This document shows, one piece after another, positions 1,944 to 32,396 of a stretch of 32,396 nucleotides of DNA; position 1 is the stretch's first letter; each line of letters starts with the position of its first letter. Source of the DNA: a virus; IMG/VR virus record IMGVR_UViG_3300020463_000004, positions 1 to 32,396 of that record, one strand, 5' to 3'. A program made the translations under genes and the position numbers. A model generated the notes under the pieces. The model was not told the origin of the DNA and did no database searches. It worked only from the letters and a program-made list of their open reading frames with translations.

Positions 1944-1972
1944 TTGACAAAAACGTCTATCGTAAATATAAT
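1944..1972 (+). promoter_or_regulatory. Perfect-consensus sigma70 promoter P6
   Basis: TTGACA at 1944-1949, 17-base spacer, TATAAT at 1967-1972. It serves the gene at 2000, and its transcript would read on into the endonuclease-like gene at 2433, because no terminator separates them. Confidence 0.85.
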
Positions 1973-1999: not shown

Positions 2000-2380
2000 A
2001 TGTACACAGAATTAGAAATAGAACAAGACAATTTGTTGTTGTTGGACAACATTATTGAGAGATTCAACAGCCACGAAGAAGAATTTGATCAACCTCAACG
2101 TAATGATCGTGAAATATGGAAATGGGTTGACAAGATCAACAAGAAAACATTCGCCATAATCATTGAAGCGGCCATAAAACACACGGATTTCACCAAGGAT
2201 CACCAACAATGGTCAGAGAAGGTGTTGCAACGCAATCCTTTCCAATTACGACCTTACACAAAACGATTCAGAAGTGCCATTGACAACAAAATGACCTGGC
2301 ATATGCTGATGATGTTGAGAGAAAGAGTGAAGAACACTCCAAACAAAACCACTAATCTATTCCAAACACTTTTCAACTAA
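2000..2380 (+). CDS. Hypothetical early protein, 126 aa
   Basis: I do not recognise this protein. It is predicted to be mainly helical, with an acidic N-terminal third (residues 4-33, DNLLLLDNIIERFNSHEEEF) and a basic C-terminal half (RPYTKRFRSA, MLRERVKNTPNK). It has no cysteine pairs, membrane segment or catalytic motif that I can see. ATG 2000 follows AAGGAG at 1985-1990 and promoter P6. It is the last gene before the switch to late-type promoter motifs. A small regulator or nucleic-acid-binding protein is possible, but nothing in it resembles the T4 sigma gp55 or co-activator gp33. Confidence 0.75.
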   Translation: MYTELEIEQDNLLLLDNIIERFNSHEEEFDQPQRNDREIWKWVDKINKKTFAIIIEAAIKHTDFTKDHQQWSEKVLQRNPFQLRPYTKRFRSAIDNKMTWHMLMMLRERVKNTPNKTTNLFQTLFN

Positions 2381-2399: not shown

Positions 2400-2437
2400 G
2401 GCATAATAAATACTCCAAACAAGGAGATTATTATGCC
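2400..2437 (+). promoter_or_regulatory. Hairpin hiding the RBS and start codon of the 2433 gene
   Basis: GGCATAATAA (2400-2409) pairs with TTATTATGCC (2428-2437), and CTCC (2413-2416) with GGAG (2423-2426), leaving a six-base loop AAACAA. Both the Shine-Dalgarno GGAG and the ATG (2433-2435) are in the 3' strand. Transcripts arriving from P6 would fold this way and be translated poorly. The late-type motif AATAAATA (2405-2412) lies in the 5' strand, with its expected transcription start (about 2418) in the loop, so a late transcript would lack the 5' strand and be free for translation. Confidence 0.7.
2405..2412 (+). promoter_or_regulatory. T4-type late promoter motif L1 (AATAAATA)
   Basis: AATAAATACTCC matches seven of eight bases of the T4 late promoter TATAAATA and continues like many T4 late start regions. 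It ends 20 bases before the ATG at 2433. No -35 box is present, as expected for this promoter class. Confidence 0.55.
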
Positions 2438-2900
2438 ATTCAAGAACGGAAACAAACCCTGGAACAAAGGACTCAAGGGCGACCCCAGGAACGGCTGGAC
2501 TGACGAGAGGCGTGCAGAGATGAGCCGCAGGATGACAGAGAAGTACAAGGATATGGGTGAACAACCACACCGTTGGCTGTTTCCAGAACATCTGCGACAA
2601 CACAGATACAGATTCCTTCGTGCCAAGGCACAGGCCAAGTATTGGTGCCAACCCTGGACAATCACCTGGGCGGAATATGTGAAGTTATTTGATGAGTGTG
2701 AAGGTACGTGGGGCAGGAACAATGAATCAAAGAATCAACTGGGCAAGGACACACACATAAACCTGGTAAGGATCAACACACTGAAAGGTTGGCAGATGGA
2801 CAATGTGAAACTTATGCAGAGAGACACCGCGATGCGTAGGCCAAGACCCAAGGATGAACAGGGAAATTTTATAAAACGTGTTAGGCGTAATAGTCAGTAA
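2433..2900 (+). CDS. NUMOD3-containing homing-endonuclease-like protein, 155 aa
   Basis: Residues 4-16 (KNGNKPWNKGLKG) match the NUMOD3 DNA-binding motif of phage homing endonucleases. The C-terminal half (LVRINTLKGWQMDNVKLMQR, about residues 113-132) resembles the tail of HNH-type phage endonucleases (R-D/N-KGY-x-x-DNV-x-L), but I cannot identify the two catalytic histidines of a full HNH motif, so activity is doubtful. The protein is strongly basic throughout. ATG 2433 with AGGAG is sequestered in a hairpin that also contains a late-type promoter. T4 controls I-TevI, a homing endonuclease, in the same way. The gene sits at the boundary between the early arc and the fibre cluster, a typical free-standing site for such genes. 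Confidence 0.65.
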   Translation: MPFKNGNKPWNKGLKGDPRNGWTDERRAEMSRRMTEKYKDMGEQPHRWLFPEHLRQHRYRFLRAKAQAKYWCQPWTITWAEYVKLFDECEGTWGRNNESKNQLGKDTHINLVRINTLKGWQMDNVKLMQRDTAMRRPRPKDEQGNFIKRVRRNSQ

Positions 2901-3542: not shown

Positions 3543-3550
3543 AATAAATA
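3543..3550 (+). promoter_or_regulatory. T4-type late promoter motif L3 with leader hairpin
   Basis: AATAAATA at 3543-3550, followed three bases later by the perfect palindrome TTGTAATTACAA (3554-3565) and then AAAGGAG, with ATG at 3578. The expected transcript would start at or in the palindrome. Motif L5 at 11860 has the same motif-palindrome-SD order. Confidence 0.55.
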
Positions 3551-3577
3551 TCATTGTAATTACAAAGGAGATCCTGG

Positions 3578-8715: not shown

Positions 8716-10350
8716 ATGACATTTCCTGGAGTAGGAAGAGCAGTTTTTATAGGCGGCTCACTGGGTGGAGGCACAGGCAGGACTACGGATTGGAGCACAT
8801 ACAACGGCACCAATGACACAGCCTGGCAACAGTGGATCAAGGATGATTCATCAGCATTGGGAACCACATATCAAGCCATAAAAGGATTCAAGAAAGTTGG
8901 TCTGTCCAGTTCAGGCAGTTTCTTTATGGGTGTGGACAACAATGGCACACAGACCATAGCCAAGTTCGTGCCAGACACGGATGATGCCACAGCAGGACAT
9001 TTCACATTGGGTTCATTCCACAACCTTGGCACCAACAAGGTGCAGATGGTCAACAACGGTGCGGAGATGGTGTTGACCAGTAATGTTGACAGCGGAACCA
9101 TAGTGGTTTTCAATCAGGAGTTATCAGATTCAGGCAAGATATCAGGACTGGCCTCAAATCTGCCAAACGACAACTGGGACTGCACGGTTTATGAGACCAC
9201 CGCTTCATCAGGTGGCTCAAGTTCACCAAGCGGCACCTACAATTACACTGAACACTTCTGGCACTCTCACGCAGATATGATTGTTTGGTATATGCACGAC
9301 GCCCCAGATAACGAACTTAAAGGCGCGGCACACGTGTGGCTTAAAGGCAATTATTCATTCAGACACAACACAGCCAACGATAGCAACAGTGGCGGTTCAG
9401 GCCTTGCAGGCTTGCTCACATCGCCCAGCACACAGCCAAACTATGGCGGTGAACACGATTCTGTAGACAGACGTGGTGACACCTATTACAACAGCGGATC
9501 AATGGGTAACAAGGACAATTTTATACCACACATCCACAGGATGAGAAAACACCTGGAACCTGATGACAACATCACAGACTTCAGCGGCTTGATTGGACAG
9601 AGACAGACTGAGAGGCTGTTTATGTCATTGAACATATTTGACAATGATGGCACAACATCAGACAACGTGTTCAAGATGGGTTTGCTTGACCACTACGCCA
9701 ATAACGGTGGTGGTGGATATGGTGGTACAGGCCTATCTTTCACCTTGCACAATGAAAACAGTTATAGATCAAATTCTGATGTCAAATATTACACACCCAC
9801 TGGACGTAGTTCAAACAACACCAACCCAGACAACAATGTCAGTATGGTTAAAAACGACAGTATGGTGCAGGTGTATGGTGATGAGACAGGCACCAACGGC
9901 GGAACACTGTACGTCACAGCAATGAGTGACACCACAGAGACCGCAAGTTCACAATACAATCCTACTGCCCACGACGGTGGCGTGGCAGAGATGTTTAGAT
10001 TTGATGAAGTCACAGCAAACAACACACACAGCACCAATGCCAAGATTGTTTCAAGCACTACCACAAGTGACAGTTCAAACACAGGCTTTGATGCAGAAGA
10101 TGTGTGCATAGGCGACCTACACGGCGATTACTTTGGCGTGGCCTGGAGACAGGGCACAACAGCATACGTCAGTGTTTTTGAATTACAGGAACAGACTTCT
10201 GATATGCCCTTGATAACAAGGGTGGCAGACTCAATCAATTTAGGAACAGTGCCCAACGCAGGCAGGATGGCATTGGCACGATTAGGTAATGGTGTGGCAG
10301 TTTTAACCTGTGGCAACTATTATAGGATTATAAAGACCAACACAGTTTAA
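8716..10350 (+). CDS. Large appendage protein of unknown fold, 544 aa
   Basis: No family is recognised. The sequence is Gly/Asn/Ser/Thr rich and low in charge, with strand-turn patterns throughout (GSSSPSGTYNYTEHFWHSH, NNGGGGYGGTGLSFTLHNEN) and a C-terminus (GVAVLTCGNYYRIIKT) that could close a beta-propeller or jelly-roll domain. It starts 9 bases after the giant fibre with AAGGAG at 8705-8710, so it is read from the same transcript. The position suggests a fibre tip, a carbohydrate-binding decoration or a receptor-binding partner. The cluster HFWHSHADMIVWYMHD has several His, Trp and Asp residues that might bind metal; no known enzyme motif is seen. Confidence 0.7.
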   Translation: MTFPGVGRAVFIGGSLGGGTGRTTDWSTYNGTNDTAWQQWIKDDSSALGTTYQAIKGFKKVGLSSSGSFFMGVDNNGTQTIAKFVPDTDDATAGHFTLGSFHNLGTNKVQMVNNGAEMVLTSNVDSGTIVVFNQELSDSGKISGLASNLPNDNWDCTVYETTASSGGSSSPSGTYNYTEHFWHSHADMIVWYMHDAPDNELKGAAHVWLKGNYSFRHNTANDSNSGGSGLAGLLTSPSTQPNYGGEHDSVDRRGDTYYNSGSMGNKDNFIPHIHRMRKHLEPDDNITDFSGLIGQRQTERLFMSLNIFDNDGTTSDNVFKMGLLDHYANNGGGGYGGTGLSFTLHNENSYRSNSDVKYYTPTGRSSNNTNPDNNVSMVKNDSMVQVYGDETGTNGGTLYVTAMSDTTETASSQYNPTAHDGGVAEMFRFDEVTANNTHSTNAKIVSSTTTSDSSNTGFDAEDVCIGDLHGDYFGVAWRQGTTAYVSVFELQEQTSDMPLITRVADSINLGTVPNAGRMALARLGNGVAVLTCGNYYRIIKTNTV

Positions 10351-10357
10351 GTAAATA
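10350..10357 (+). promoter_or_regulatory. T4-type late promoter motif L4 (AGTAAATA)
   Basis: AGTAAATATAC begins at the last base of the upstream stop codon and ends 21 bases before ATG 10379; AAAAAGGAG lies between. No leader hairpin. Confidence 0.4.
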
Positions 10358-11859: not shown

Positions 11860-11867
11860 AATAAATA
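11860..11867 (+). promoter_or_regulatory. T4-type late promoter motif L5 with leader hairpin
   Basis: AATAAATA at 11860-11867, then the perfect 14-base palindrome TTGTTATATAACAA (11871-11884), then AAGGAG and ATG 11899. The expected transcript starts within the palindrome's first half. The organisation copies that of L3 at 3543. Confidence 0.55.
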
Positions 11868-11898
11868 TGTTTGTTATATAACAAAGGAGAAAACAACA

Positions 11899-18833: not shown

Positions 18834-19281
18834 AGACATTGAGAAGTGGATTGGACAGGTTGTTGCTAAAAAGCATAAGGCGAGTGGAGCGGCAATCTGT
18901 CCGTTTGCAAAAAAGACTCTTGAAGATAGAAAAATCCAGATCACAATGGCAAAGAAAAATGTGTTGGATCAGATTGTGCATTGTTGTAGCCTTTTTAATA
19001 TTTTCAATCTGGACATTGTCATCCTTTATTTCACTGACAAGATAACAGAACCAAAACTAAAAAACATCTGTAAACGAGCACACCAACAGAATCCTTTGTT
19101 CGCCATAATGTATGACCACCCTGCCAATAACGGACTACATAAAGGTGTATCATTCAGTTATGGCAAAGCGCCTCTGATAATGATACAGGGAATGGCAAAA
19201 CTGAAACAAGCACAAGAAAAGTTAAAGCAGTCTGGATACTACGAGAAGTGGGACATAGACTCGTTTGAGCAGTTTTACTAA
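18802..19281 (+). CDS. Conserved phage protein of unknown function, 159 aa
   Basis: Conserved-looking features are DIEKWI near the start, GAAICPFAKKTLEDRKIQI, NLDIVILYFTDKI, and a C-terminal QGMAKLKQAQEKLKQSGYYEKWD. I know similar chains (EKWI...CPFAKK...YYEKW) from marine phages, without an assigned function. The CPFAKK cysteine could be redox active, but no partner cysteine is adjacent. The start is uncertain: GTG 18802 or GTG 18817, neither with a good Shine-Dalgarno site; family resemblance begins only at DIEKW. Its stop is followed by a late-type promoter motif. Confidence 0.6.
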   Translation: MLVRKVAVGSKDIEKWIGQVVAKKHKASGAAICPFAKKTLEDRKIQITMAKKNVLDQIVHCCSLFNIFNLDIVILYFTDKITEPKLKNICKRAHQQNPLFAIMYDHPANNGLHKGVSFSYGKAPLIMIQGMAKLKQAQEKLKQSGYYEKWDIDSFEQFY

Positions 19282-19287
19282 TAAATA
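19280..19287 (+). promoter_or_regulatory. T4-type late promoter motif L6 with leader hairpin
   Basis: AATAAATA overlaps the upstream stop codon. The expected start (about 19293) is followed by a possible hairpin, GTGGTA (19296-19301) with TGCCAC (19306-19311), then AGGAGG and ATG 19334. It would drive the scaffold-capsid operon. Confidence 0.55.
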
Positions 19288-19333
19288 AACACATAGTGGT
19301 AATCCTGCCACGCATAACAATAGGAGGACTACG

Positions 19334-20038
19334 ATGAGTCAAGAACAGACATCGCCAGACGTTCAAACTGCCACTGGGGCAACTGAAACAGTCTCTAACA
19401 CGATCCAGGACACAGCGGACAATCAACCCGCGAAAGTTTATACACAGGCAGACATTGATGCTGTGGCGGCTGAAGTAAGAAGAAAAGCAGAAGCCAAATA
19501 CACAAAGAAGTTTGAAGGTATAGACGTTGAGAAATACCAGACATTCTTGGAGAAGGAAGAAGAGCAAAAAATTTCCCAAGCCAAGGAGAAGTCAGAGTTT
19601 GAGAAACTGTTGAAGGAGAACGCAGACAAGTTCAACAACAAGATTTCAACACTGACATCTGAACTGACAAAGATCAAGGTAGATGGTGCATTGATTAATG
19701 CCGCATCAACCAAGAAGGCAATAAACCCAGACCAAGTCGCAAGGCTGGTTAGGGAGAATGTTAAAATGTCAGAAGCAGGTGAAGTTGAAGTCATTGATCC
19801 CAAGACAGGACAGACTAGATACACTGACAATGGTGATCCTCTTAACATAGATGGGTTGGTTTCAGAATTCCTAAACACCAATCCACACTTTGTTCAAGCA
19901 GGTCAACCAGGTGGTGGATCTAAATCAAACACTGGCACAGAAGGTGTTCCTCAAGTTGATGTTAATAGTCTGGATATGACAAATCCAGAACACAGAAAGA
20001 AATATGCTGAGTGGCGAAAGACACAAGGCACGTTTTAA
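19334..20038 (+). CDS. Capsid assembly scaffolding protein, 234 aa
   Basis: The chain is hydrophilic and highly charged: a Thr/Ala/Gln-rich disordered start, a long coiled coil at residues of about 33-120 (VAAEVRRKAEAKYTKKFEGI ... LEKEEEQKISQAKEKSEFEK), then a Gly/Ser-rich linker and a C-terminal MTNPEHRKKYAEWRKTQGTF. This composition, the length and the place directly before the major capsid gene are those of a GP20-type scaffold, which shapes the procapsid and is later released. No separate head protease gene is evident. ATG 19334 has AGGAGG upstream. Confidence 0.85.
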   Translation: MSQEQTSPDVQTATGATETVSNTIQDTADNQPAKVYTQADIDAVAAEVRRKAEAKYTKKFEGIDVEKYQTFLEKEEEQKISQAKEKSEFEKLLKENADKFNNKISTLTSELTKIKVDGALINAASTKKAINPDQVARLVRENVKMSEAGEVEVIDPKTGQTRYTDNGDPLNIDGLVSEFLNTNPHFVQAGQPGGGSKSNTGTEGVPQVDVNSLDMTNPEHRKKYAEWRKTQGTF

Positions 20039-20988: not shown

Positions 20989-21480
20989 ATGATTGTTTGG
21001 TTCAACGGACACAGTCAGCGACAATACCTGGACCTGCCCAAGCGAGGTTTTGAGATTGGTTGCAATTACATCAGGCGTGTTAGGCCTGTTGATTTTGTTG
21101 TGGCCTATGATCCAGATGTAATCAATAAAATTGACAGAGAACAAGGCATAGTATATTACACACGGCCTGATTATGCTGTTGGTGATCAATGGCTAAAGAT
21201 AGGTGAACAACCAGTACAAGGCTTGAACAGTGGTTGCCTTGCAGTGCTACTTGCCACAAAACTCACACACAAACCTATCTACATACTAGGTTGTGACTGG
21301 GGACTAAATTTAAAAACTGTGTTTGACTACGGCAAAGGTGAACAACGCAAATACAACAATCAACAGAAAAAATTTATAAAACAATTGGCTCAGCATCAAG
21401 AAATAGTAGTGGTTAATGATCAAAAGGTTGATGTGCCAGTGGAGATAATAACATCTTCGCAGTTCCGCAATAAATACTGA
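20989..21480 (+). CDS. DUF115 / glycosyltransferase-like protein, 163 aa
   Basis: The protein opens with IVWFNGHSQ (residues 2-10) and has FEIGCNYIRR (21-30), VDFVVAYDPDV (34-44), LNSGCLAVLLATKL (79-92) and IYILGCDWG (98-105). This order (N-G-S, N, D, NSG-x-x-A, I-x-L-G-x-D) is typical of the MptE-like/DUF115 and sialyltransferase-like nucleotide-binding fold. A sugar-transfer role on host surface or virion is therefore possible, but no substrate is indicated. The gene sits just behind the capsid terminator, starts only seven bases after its T-run, and has no Shine-Dalgarno site or promoter that I can see. It would be expressed by read-through and looks like an inserted accessory gene. Its 3' end contains the late motif of the next operon. 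Confidence 0.55.
   Translation: MIVWFNGHSQRQYLDLPKRGFEIGCNYIRRVRPVDFVVAYDPDVINKIDREQGIVYYTRPDYAVGDQWLKIGEQPVQGLNSGCLAVLLATKLTHKPIYILGCDWGLNLKTVFDYGKGEQRKYNNQQKKFIKQLAQHQEIVVVNDQKVDVPVEIITSSQFRNKY
21469..21476 (+). promoter_or_regulatory. T4-type late promoter motif L7 with leader hairpin
   Basis: AATAAATACTG lies in the last codons of the upstream gene. The expected start (about 21482) immediately precedes a perfect hairpin, ACAAGGT (21483-21489) with ACCTTGT (21493-21499), then AGAAGGAC and ATG 21526. It would drive the connector-tail operon that reaches 29.8 kb. Confidence 0.6.
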
Positions 21481-30120: not shown

Positions 30121-30434
30121 ATATGGCAAGACAATTACAGCCACGGCACACATAATTTCCCAAACTGGAGATCATAATGGCAAGGGTCTCCCACCAGCGA
30201 CAAAGTTGTATCCTGTCGCACAAACGGTGGCAAACGATACCTGAAGGCACGGTGACATAGGCAAGCGGTCCGTGAAAAGTAGGTGGATGCAATTCTTGTG
30301 GGACTAATCAAGTCGCAGGAGGACGGCGTAGGACAACGAGAGAAGTCCTATTGCCGTTCTTGTGAGTTCAAAATCAAGACGAAGTCAATGAAGATGAGCA
30401 CAGCGAATCTTCAGGTGGCGACTGCCGCCTTTAT
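30121..30434 (+). ncRNA. Candidate 300-nt structured RNA
   Basis: Downstream of promoter P7 several strong hairpins follow one another: CCACC (30191-30195) with GGTGG (30226-30230) around GCGACA (30197-30202) with TGTCGC (30214-30219); ACGGC-GT-AGGAC (30323-30334) with GTCCT-ATT-GCCGT (30345-30357); and GGTGGC (30414-30419) with GCCGCC (30424-30429) followed by TTTAT, a weak terminator. Only a 27-codon frame (30177-30260, CTGGAG before it) and a 69-codon GTG-started frame (30283-30492) lie here. The density of compensating stems suggests an RNA gene, but small-peptide coding cannot be excluded. Confidence 0.45.
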
Positions 30435-30492
30435 AAATACGAGTGCGTTGGGGTGTTGTCTTTACACTCCTTGCAGAATGTTTGACTTATAA
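30283..30492 (+). CDS. Doubtful small Cys-containing protein, 69 aa
   Basis: A GTG-started frame encoding REKSYCRSCEFKIKTKSMKM, a pattern reminiscent of small zinc-ribbon proteins (YCxxC), and ending GCCLYTPCRMFDL. Against it: no Shine-Dalgarno site at usable distance, the region folds into strong hairpins, the frame contains an exact TATAAATA, and codon use departs from that of the neighbouring phage genes. Kept as a possible gene only. Confidence 0.25.
   Translation: MDAILVGLIKSQEDGVGQREKSYCRSCEFKIKTKSMKMSTANLQVATAAFINTSALGCCLYTPCRMFDL
30432..30439 (+). promoter_or_regulatory. Exact T4-type late promoter L8 (TATAAATA)
   Basis: The only perfect TATAAATA I found in the genome. With T4 spacing transcription would start at about 30445, exactly the first base of the stem GCGTTGGGGTG (30445-30455). 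No protein gene with an RBS follows it, so it would produce a structured RNA. Confidence 0.55.
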
Positions 30493-30600
30493 GTCACCCA
30501 AACGCAGTTCGTTCTAATGACATTTAGAACCCCTAGGCGTGGAGAGGTTCCATTCAACATATTGCCATATTTTGATCCCCTCTCCACACCTCTCAAAGTA
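30445..30600 (+). ncRNA. Hairpin-dense non-coding block; candidate late RNA, packaging site or origin
   Basis: The block holds, in order: GCGTTGGGGTG (30445-30455) with CACCCAAACGC (30495-30505), one mismatch; the palindrome GACTTATAAGTC (30484-30495); GTTCTAA (30511-30517) with TTAGAAC (30524-30530), perfect; and GTGGAGAGG (30539-30547) with CCTCTCCAC (30579-30587), perfect. Four inverted repeats in 145 bases in the largest gene-poor stretch fit a structured RNA, a packaging signal or an origin of replication. A frame at 30517-30777 crosses the hairpins and has no RBS. Confidence 0.5.
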
Positions 30601-32319: not shown

Positions 32320-32396
32320 CCGTGCATTTACGGTTGACACAATGGCGATTTGTGTTAATATATTAATATAATCCTACCGTTCTGACCAAATTATCA
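32320..32396. repeat. Terminal direct repeat, right copy
   Basis: Identical to bases 1-77 and ending inside the region between promoters P1 and P2. It closes the genome to a 32,319-bp circle and should not be counted twice. Confidence 0.9.

Follow-up and report, generated by a model that had tools for sequence, protein, structure and literature searches.

The locus considered here lies in a viral DNA of 32,396 nucleotides, IMG/VR record IMGVR_UViG_3300020463_000004, hereafter called the window. On its plus strand, the ribosome-binding site and the start codon of an endonuclease-like gene at 2433 are buried in a hairpin whose 5' strand carries a box resembling the late promoters of phage T4. 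It raises the question of whether a small phage uses the device known from T4 e and I-TevI, in which a late promoter is combined with a hairpin sequestering the ribosome-binding site; the use of this device in T4, as stated in the initial annotation, agrees with the literature (PMC2988022, PMC3014915). A translational switch of the T4 e/I-TevI type with a late-type promoter inside it, operating in a new phage group with a late factor not yet recognised, is probably the correct reading of this locus.

The hairpin at 2400-2437 (GGCATAATAAATACTCCAAACAAGGAGATTATTATGCC) comprises 14 base pairs, 10 in an outer and four in an inner stem, with a 3x1 internal loop and a 6-nt terminal loop, AAACAA (2417-2422). 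Its outer 5' arm GGCATAATAA (2400-2409) pairs with the outer 3' arm TTATTATGCC (2428-2437), which contains the ATG at 2433, while the inner 5' arm CTCC (2413-2416) pairs with the Shine-Dalgarno sequence GGAG (2423-2426). Both translation signals are paired within the structure, and the 14-pair stem described in the initial annotation is found again in the sequence and by folding. When 81 nt are folded, the minimum free energy is -18.5 kcal/mol, compared with a mean of -6.96 (sd 2.32) for shuffled sequences (z = -4.97), none of 200 shuffles being as stable. Among the 29 gene-start leaders of the window, that of the nuclease gene is the most stable, at -17.8 kcal/mol, the next one reaching -12.1. 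The hairpin is confirmed as real. An intrinsic terminator was considered and rejected, no run of T following the hairpin on either strand, and Rfam and tRNA scans gave no match. Elsewhere in the window, the leader of the scaffolding gene (19289-19336) can also pair its Shine-Dalgarno sequence and AUG (-12.1 kcal/mol), with a 5' arm that is located no further upstream than the predicted late start and would therefore be part of the late RNA as well.

Opening of the hairpin was computed for two RNAs. For the AUG, the probability of being unpaired is 0.00 when a read-through RNA of about 150 nt is folded and 0.88 when the RNA starts at 2418; that of GGAG passes from 0.20 to 0.52, so that GGAG is freed only partly. 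Translation of the two RNAs would presumably differ. Applied to T4 e, the same calculation gives 0.04-0.05 for the AUG in the long form versus 0.41-0.72 in the short forms, and 0.00 versus 0.30-0.69 for the Shine-Dalgarno sequence; the test is crude because T4 soc and I-TevI hardly open in it. In its in silico behaviour, the hairpin at 2400-2437 resembles that of T4 e. Among the other boxes of the window examined by folding, none combines an AUG fully hidden in the long RNA with an AUG free in the short one, a behaviour found only at 2405.

This leader recurs in two further genomes of IMG/VR, L001 and L003, so that the hairpin sub-lineage there consists of three genomes including the window. 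All 14 pairs are kept in L001 and L003 alike. Across the 38 nt, the window and L001 differ only at 2405 and 2432, which are pairing partners: the A-U pair of the window is replaced by U-A in L001 and L003, the box thereby becoming TATAAATA. The changed base at 2405 is the first one of the box and corresponds to the variable -13 position of T4. Shuffled sequence and compensatory changes in relatives had been put forward earlier as the checks to which this stem should be submitted, and the double change with all 14 pairs retained answers the second as the folding energies answer the first. Conservation of the pairing was computed in several ways. When the partner is slid out of register, pairing falls from 100% to 38-55% in the window, L001 and L003. 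The chance that two random changes hit partners and restore the pair is 0.002-0.009, and the neutral probability that all pairs are kept at the silent-site divergence between the window and L003 (0.26-0.44), computed at sites not fixed by the box, the Shine-Dalgarno sequence or the start codons, is about 0.001-0.02. A covariation shuffle control gave 168/500, a value without power as only three sequences are involved. In IMG/VR, a broad hairpin pattern occurs at 24 places, with a stem over the Shine-Dalgarno sequence also in L039, L043, L050, L044, L055, and L049, and without such a stem at the remaining ones; at the DNA level, the region matched none of the named phages searched.

That such a hairpin arose by chance and is devoid of function seems very improbable. 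Only three genomes carry it, and its arms are short and AT-rich, but its z value of -4.97, its first rank among the 29 leaders and the conservation of its pairing through a double change all speak against accident. As the paired replacement at 2405/2432 would likewise preserve the half-site symmetry of a DNA element, the inverted repeat might act as DNA, namely as an operator with two-fold symmetry that covers the promoter and is recognised by the nuclease or by some other regulator, the RNA fold being a by-product. Autorepression of I-TevI through an operator overlapping its late promoter is indeed established (PMC2988022). This interpretation is nevertheless unlikely, and it is weakened by L003, because two changes of this leader keep the RNA pairing and not the DNA symmetry: in the inner stem, a C-G pair has become U-G (CTTC opposite GGAG), which pairs in RNA but breaks the symmetry of the DNA, and one base inserted in the 3' arm lengthens the RNA stem but shifts the spacing of the half-sites. 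The arms, moreover, include exactly GGAG and ATG.

The box in the 5' strand, AATAAATA (2405-2412; TATAAATA in L001 and L003), can be positioned according to T4 numbering, in which the first base of the late box is -13 and the last one -6 (PMC2988020). Because this rule puts the first box base at -13, transcription is predicted to start at 2418, in the loop, as the initial annotation had placed it. The A found at -13 in the window is present at nine T4 late-promoter sites (PMC2988020). The core TAAATA occurs at 12 sites on the coding strand of the window and at two on the other strand. Eight of the 12 plus-strand sites stand 12-60 nt before gene starts, a zone covering 5.6% of positions. In leaders, the core is counted eight times, while shuffling yields 1.6, and 6 at most over 400 shuffles. 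Boxes of the AATAAATA form precede genes 3578 (3543-3550), 11899 (11860-11867) and 21526 (21469-21476) as well as the scaffolding gene 19334 (19280-19287), and the AGTAAATA form precedes gene 10379 (10350-10357) and the structural gene 2923 (2896-2903), all on the plus strand.

Conservation of the box was computed from a search with this neighbouring structural gene, which yielded 29 loci, i.e., 30 leaders including the window. TAAATA is located 17-39 nt before the structural-gene start in 30/30 leaders, for an expectation of 0.69 and with two controls giving 0, while no conservation of a -35 region is seen in a non-redundant set of 20 of these leaders. Before structural genes, the box thus has six bases that do not vary and stands at a distance suitable for a promoter, and NNTAAATA is a genuine group-wide promoter-like element of this phage group. 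We infer that it serves as a promoter, and as a late one; as far as the sequence goes, a box with a -10 element only has the layout of T4-type late promoters. Both box sequence and -10-only layout are shared with the late promoters of cyanophage S-PM2, with the variant NATAAATA, and of Aeh1, with (a/g)CTAAATA (PMC2988020), phages that all have gp55. An archaeal TATA box was rejected, the 17-39 nt separating box and ATG leaving no room for the usual start and a Shine-Dalgarno sequence.

Some of the boxes have peculiar surroundings. Palindromes after or around them overlap the predicted start and are possible operators or 5' hairpins, as for TTGTAATTACAA and TTTGTTATATAACAAA (window 3543-3570 and 11860-11890); such palindromes also stand before the structural gene in L078-L085, with CTCCAATAAATATGTTTGGAG in L085. 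At 30432-30500 of the window, a TATAAATA-type box is followed by a conserved stretch, GTGCGTTGGGGTGTTGTC...TTGCAG...GACTTATAAGTC, also found in G001 (3746), G002 (30574) and G003 (3534). No convincing gene is present there for about 1 kb and Rfam gives no match; a non-coding RNA or a packaging site is possible.

The other component expected of a switch is an upstream transcript. An early promoter reading toward the 2433 gene had been postulated, and the sequence offers a good candidate in P6, a predicted sigma-70 promoter TTGACA-17-TATAAT (1944-1972, plus strand) with 12/12 matches, whose -10 side is overlapped by CGTAAATA (1961-1968). No terminator-like site was found on the plus strand between P6 and 2400, and P6 is proposed as the source of read-through RNA. 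The first gene behind it, g2000 (2000-2380, plus strand), is a small conserved gene of the group encoding 126 aa; the possibility that it is a hidden gp55 was rejected (hhalign probability 0.2%). P6 is followed by g2000 and then by the nuclease gene, with box and hairpin, in the window, L001 and L003, while the order of the nuclease gene relative to g2000 varies among relatives.

Under the proposed mechanism, read-through RNA initiated at P6 and passing through g2000 would hold both arms, fold, and hide GGAG and the AUG, so that the nuclease would not be made. RNA made from the NNTAAATA promoter, which lies within the 5' arm, would start at about 2418 and lack this arm, leaving GGAG and the AUG free for translation. 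This short nuclease RNA would be expected late in infection because the same box precedes structural genes.

The gene concerned (2433-2900, plus strand) encodes a 155-aa HNH/NUMOD3-type endonuclease-like protein belonging to a conserved family of the group. Alone, the window protein has no convincing family match in Pfam and PHROGs. Single members of the family weakly match the HNH endonuclease (2.2e-5) and endonuclease VII (2.7e-4) of PHROGs, and a weak NUMOD3 signal appears in 3 of 21 members (best 2.7e-4). A profile of the family compared with HNH_3 proteins gives a weak hhalign match of 92.8%, and the bacterial genomes searched contain only distant Pseudomonas HNH_3 proteins. AlphaFold reaches a pLDDT of 76 with 21 sequences and performs poorly with four (pLDDT 50); the best match of the predicted structure is the HNH enzyme PacI, with a weak Z of 6.1, Cap5, colicin, and Cascade-HNH chains also being among the matches. 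Individually weak, these signals together favour a predicted HNH fold for the family. The initial annotation had noted that this gene looks like a homing endonuclease, and the weak HNH and NUMOD3 signals of the family go in that direction, while the distribution does not: a sporadic, invasive pattern with empty sites was not observed across the 28 loci of relatives, and the family looks resident here rather than a sporadic invader because it is present beside the same genes in 20 of them.

The arrangement before the nuclease gene differs among relatives. In many of them, the gene lies directly behind its own sigma-70-like promoter without a hairpin, the box being kept at nearly the same distance from the gene, and in L002, L007, L061, L074, and L075 the TATAAT continues into the box (TATAATAAATAC). 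A sigma-70 -10 element fused or adjacent to TAAATA is seen before the nuclease genes of these relatives and of L066, L065, and L076. Overlapping early and late promoters have been described in RB49 and S-PM2, and the fusions of the relatives resemble them. The hairpin itself occurs where the nuclease gene sits behind g2000 and P6 without a sigma-70 promoter of its own. Most simply, it is a derived feature that arose together with exposure to read-through RNA, which fits a device silencing such RNA. Since many relatives have the gene behind a sigma-70-like promoter without a hairpin, silencing the nuclease gene early is not a requirement conserved in general, and the switch belongs to the sub-lineage where this gene lies behind g2000 and lacks its own sigma-70 promoter.

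The hairpin-free relatives bear on a simpler possibility, in which the hairpin would just lower the translation of whatever transcript contains it, or act as a sensor of temperature or of a protein, and no transcription would start from the box in its arm. The fold alone would suffice for such an effect, and the overlap of box and stem could have been inherited, as the box stands at nearly the same place in relatives without a stem. This is quite unlikely, however, as the box is intact, and even nearer to the T4 consensus after the pair change, and, by the start rule, transcription of each of the three leaders would begin immediately after the 5' arm.

The switch reading can be compared with the systems in which the device was described. 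T4 I-TevI (in the td intron), I-TevII, I-TevIII, segB, and Aeh1 mobE have in common with the present locus a hairpin over the ribosome-binding site of read-through RNA, a late promoter in its 5' arm, and an endonuclease gene (PMC2988022). In T4 I-TevI, the sequence AATAAATACTTCT is close to TATAAATACTTCT of L003, and the box bases AAATAC pair with GTATTT; unlike in I-TevI, the outer arm here runs through the ATG and is parted by an internal loop from the CTCC-GGAG stem. T4 e, soc, and 49 share late promoters TATAAATA inside a start-hiding hairpin, and lysozyme synthesis from the long RNA is reduced 100-fold in T4 (PMC3014915); they differ from the present case by the type of gene, and T4 is a 169-kb myovirus with its own late sigma factor.

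A nearly identical hairpin is found in two marine T4-like contigs, L043 and L050, as TATAAATACTCC-N6-GGAG-AT(T)TATAATG before a gene starting with MQSFKNHL, the form in L050 being TATAAATACTCC-N6-GGAG-ATTTATAATG. L050 encodes gp55. These contigs differ from the window by their T4-like genome and by the gene concerned, and the nuclease family is not encoded in either of them. The likeness of L050 supports the view of one and the same device, to which either descent or convergence may have led. The locus lies at 7692-8111 in L043 and on the minus strand in L050. Among named phages, the closest TerL proteins (51-53% identity) are those of DSL-LC06 (OR003941.1) and of the Pelagibacter phages HTVC111P, 112P, 202P, and 026P, with genomes of 30-32 kb. 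DSL-LC06, which is complete at 29.8 kb (TerL 53%), has six [AGT]ATAAATA sites on the coding strand and none on the other, while the four pelagiphages display no coding-strand bias of the box; the hairpin was not found in any of these five phages.

T4-related phages encode gp55, gp33, and gp45, of which gp55 and gp45 are not recognisable here. This absence gains weight from the state of the record: positions 1-77 and 32320-32396 of the window form an exact 77-base terminal overlap, and in the relatives G001 and G003 the sequence continues over the junction of the window ends, for which reasons the simplest view of the record is that of a circular genome, complete with 32,319 bp, though not so labelled. 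It has a complete complement of head and tail genes; among those of its proteins that were scanned, none could be assigned to replication or transcription, and none clearly to lysis. Profiles of gp55 (phrog_234), Sigma70_r2, and the T4 clamp (phrog_223) gave no match in the window, G002 (31.9 kb), and DSL-LC06, with T4 as positive control at 2.5e-70 for gp55 and 3.4e-86 for the clamp. The gp55 profile also found nothing in fifteen further records of the group, several of them fragments (17 relatives in all), nor did that of the gp45-type clamp, phrog_223, in seven genomes. These searches leave room for a strongly diverged gp55-type factor. True T4-type late transcription, for which the initial annotation expected strong support, is unproven here, since neither gp55 nor a T4-type clamp was recognised in an apparently complete genome; its DNA and RNA grammar is present, and a gp55-type reader was not recognised.

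Such results could suggest a host sigma factor as the reader of NNTAAATA, or a role of this box in marking RNA processing, the layout being T4-like without constituting a phage-late switch, all the more so as the box overlaps the sigma-70 -10 elements before the nuclease genes of several relatives (TATAATAAATAC). We regard this as unlikely: the lack of -35 conservation and the six invariant bases before structural genes fit the T4-late class, the variants NATAAATA and (a/g)CTAAATA are known in S-PM2 and Aeh1, and overlapping early and late promoters are described in RB49 and S-PM2 too.

In the cited literature, the switch in which a late promoter is enclosed in a hairpin is described only for T4-related phages having gp55. 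That small phages without a recognisable gp55 show this layout, with its pairing conserved, raises the question of what reads these promoters, and a new late sigma factor, a host factor, and a helper phage each predict different things. As a tentative proposal, which we hold to be possible rather than probable, a structurally complete, siphovirus-like lineage of 32 kb may run its late genes through T4-type late promoters and a hairpin switch without gp55 or the clamp, relying on an unrecognised class of late sigma factors or on the machinery of a co-infecting T4-like phage. If the late machinery of a helper is truly borrowed, the lineage would be a capsid-encoding dependent virus.
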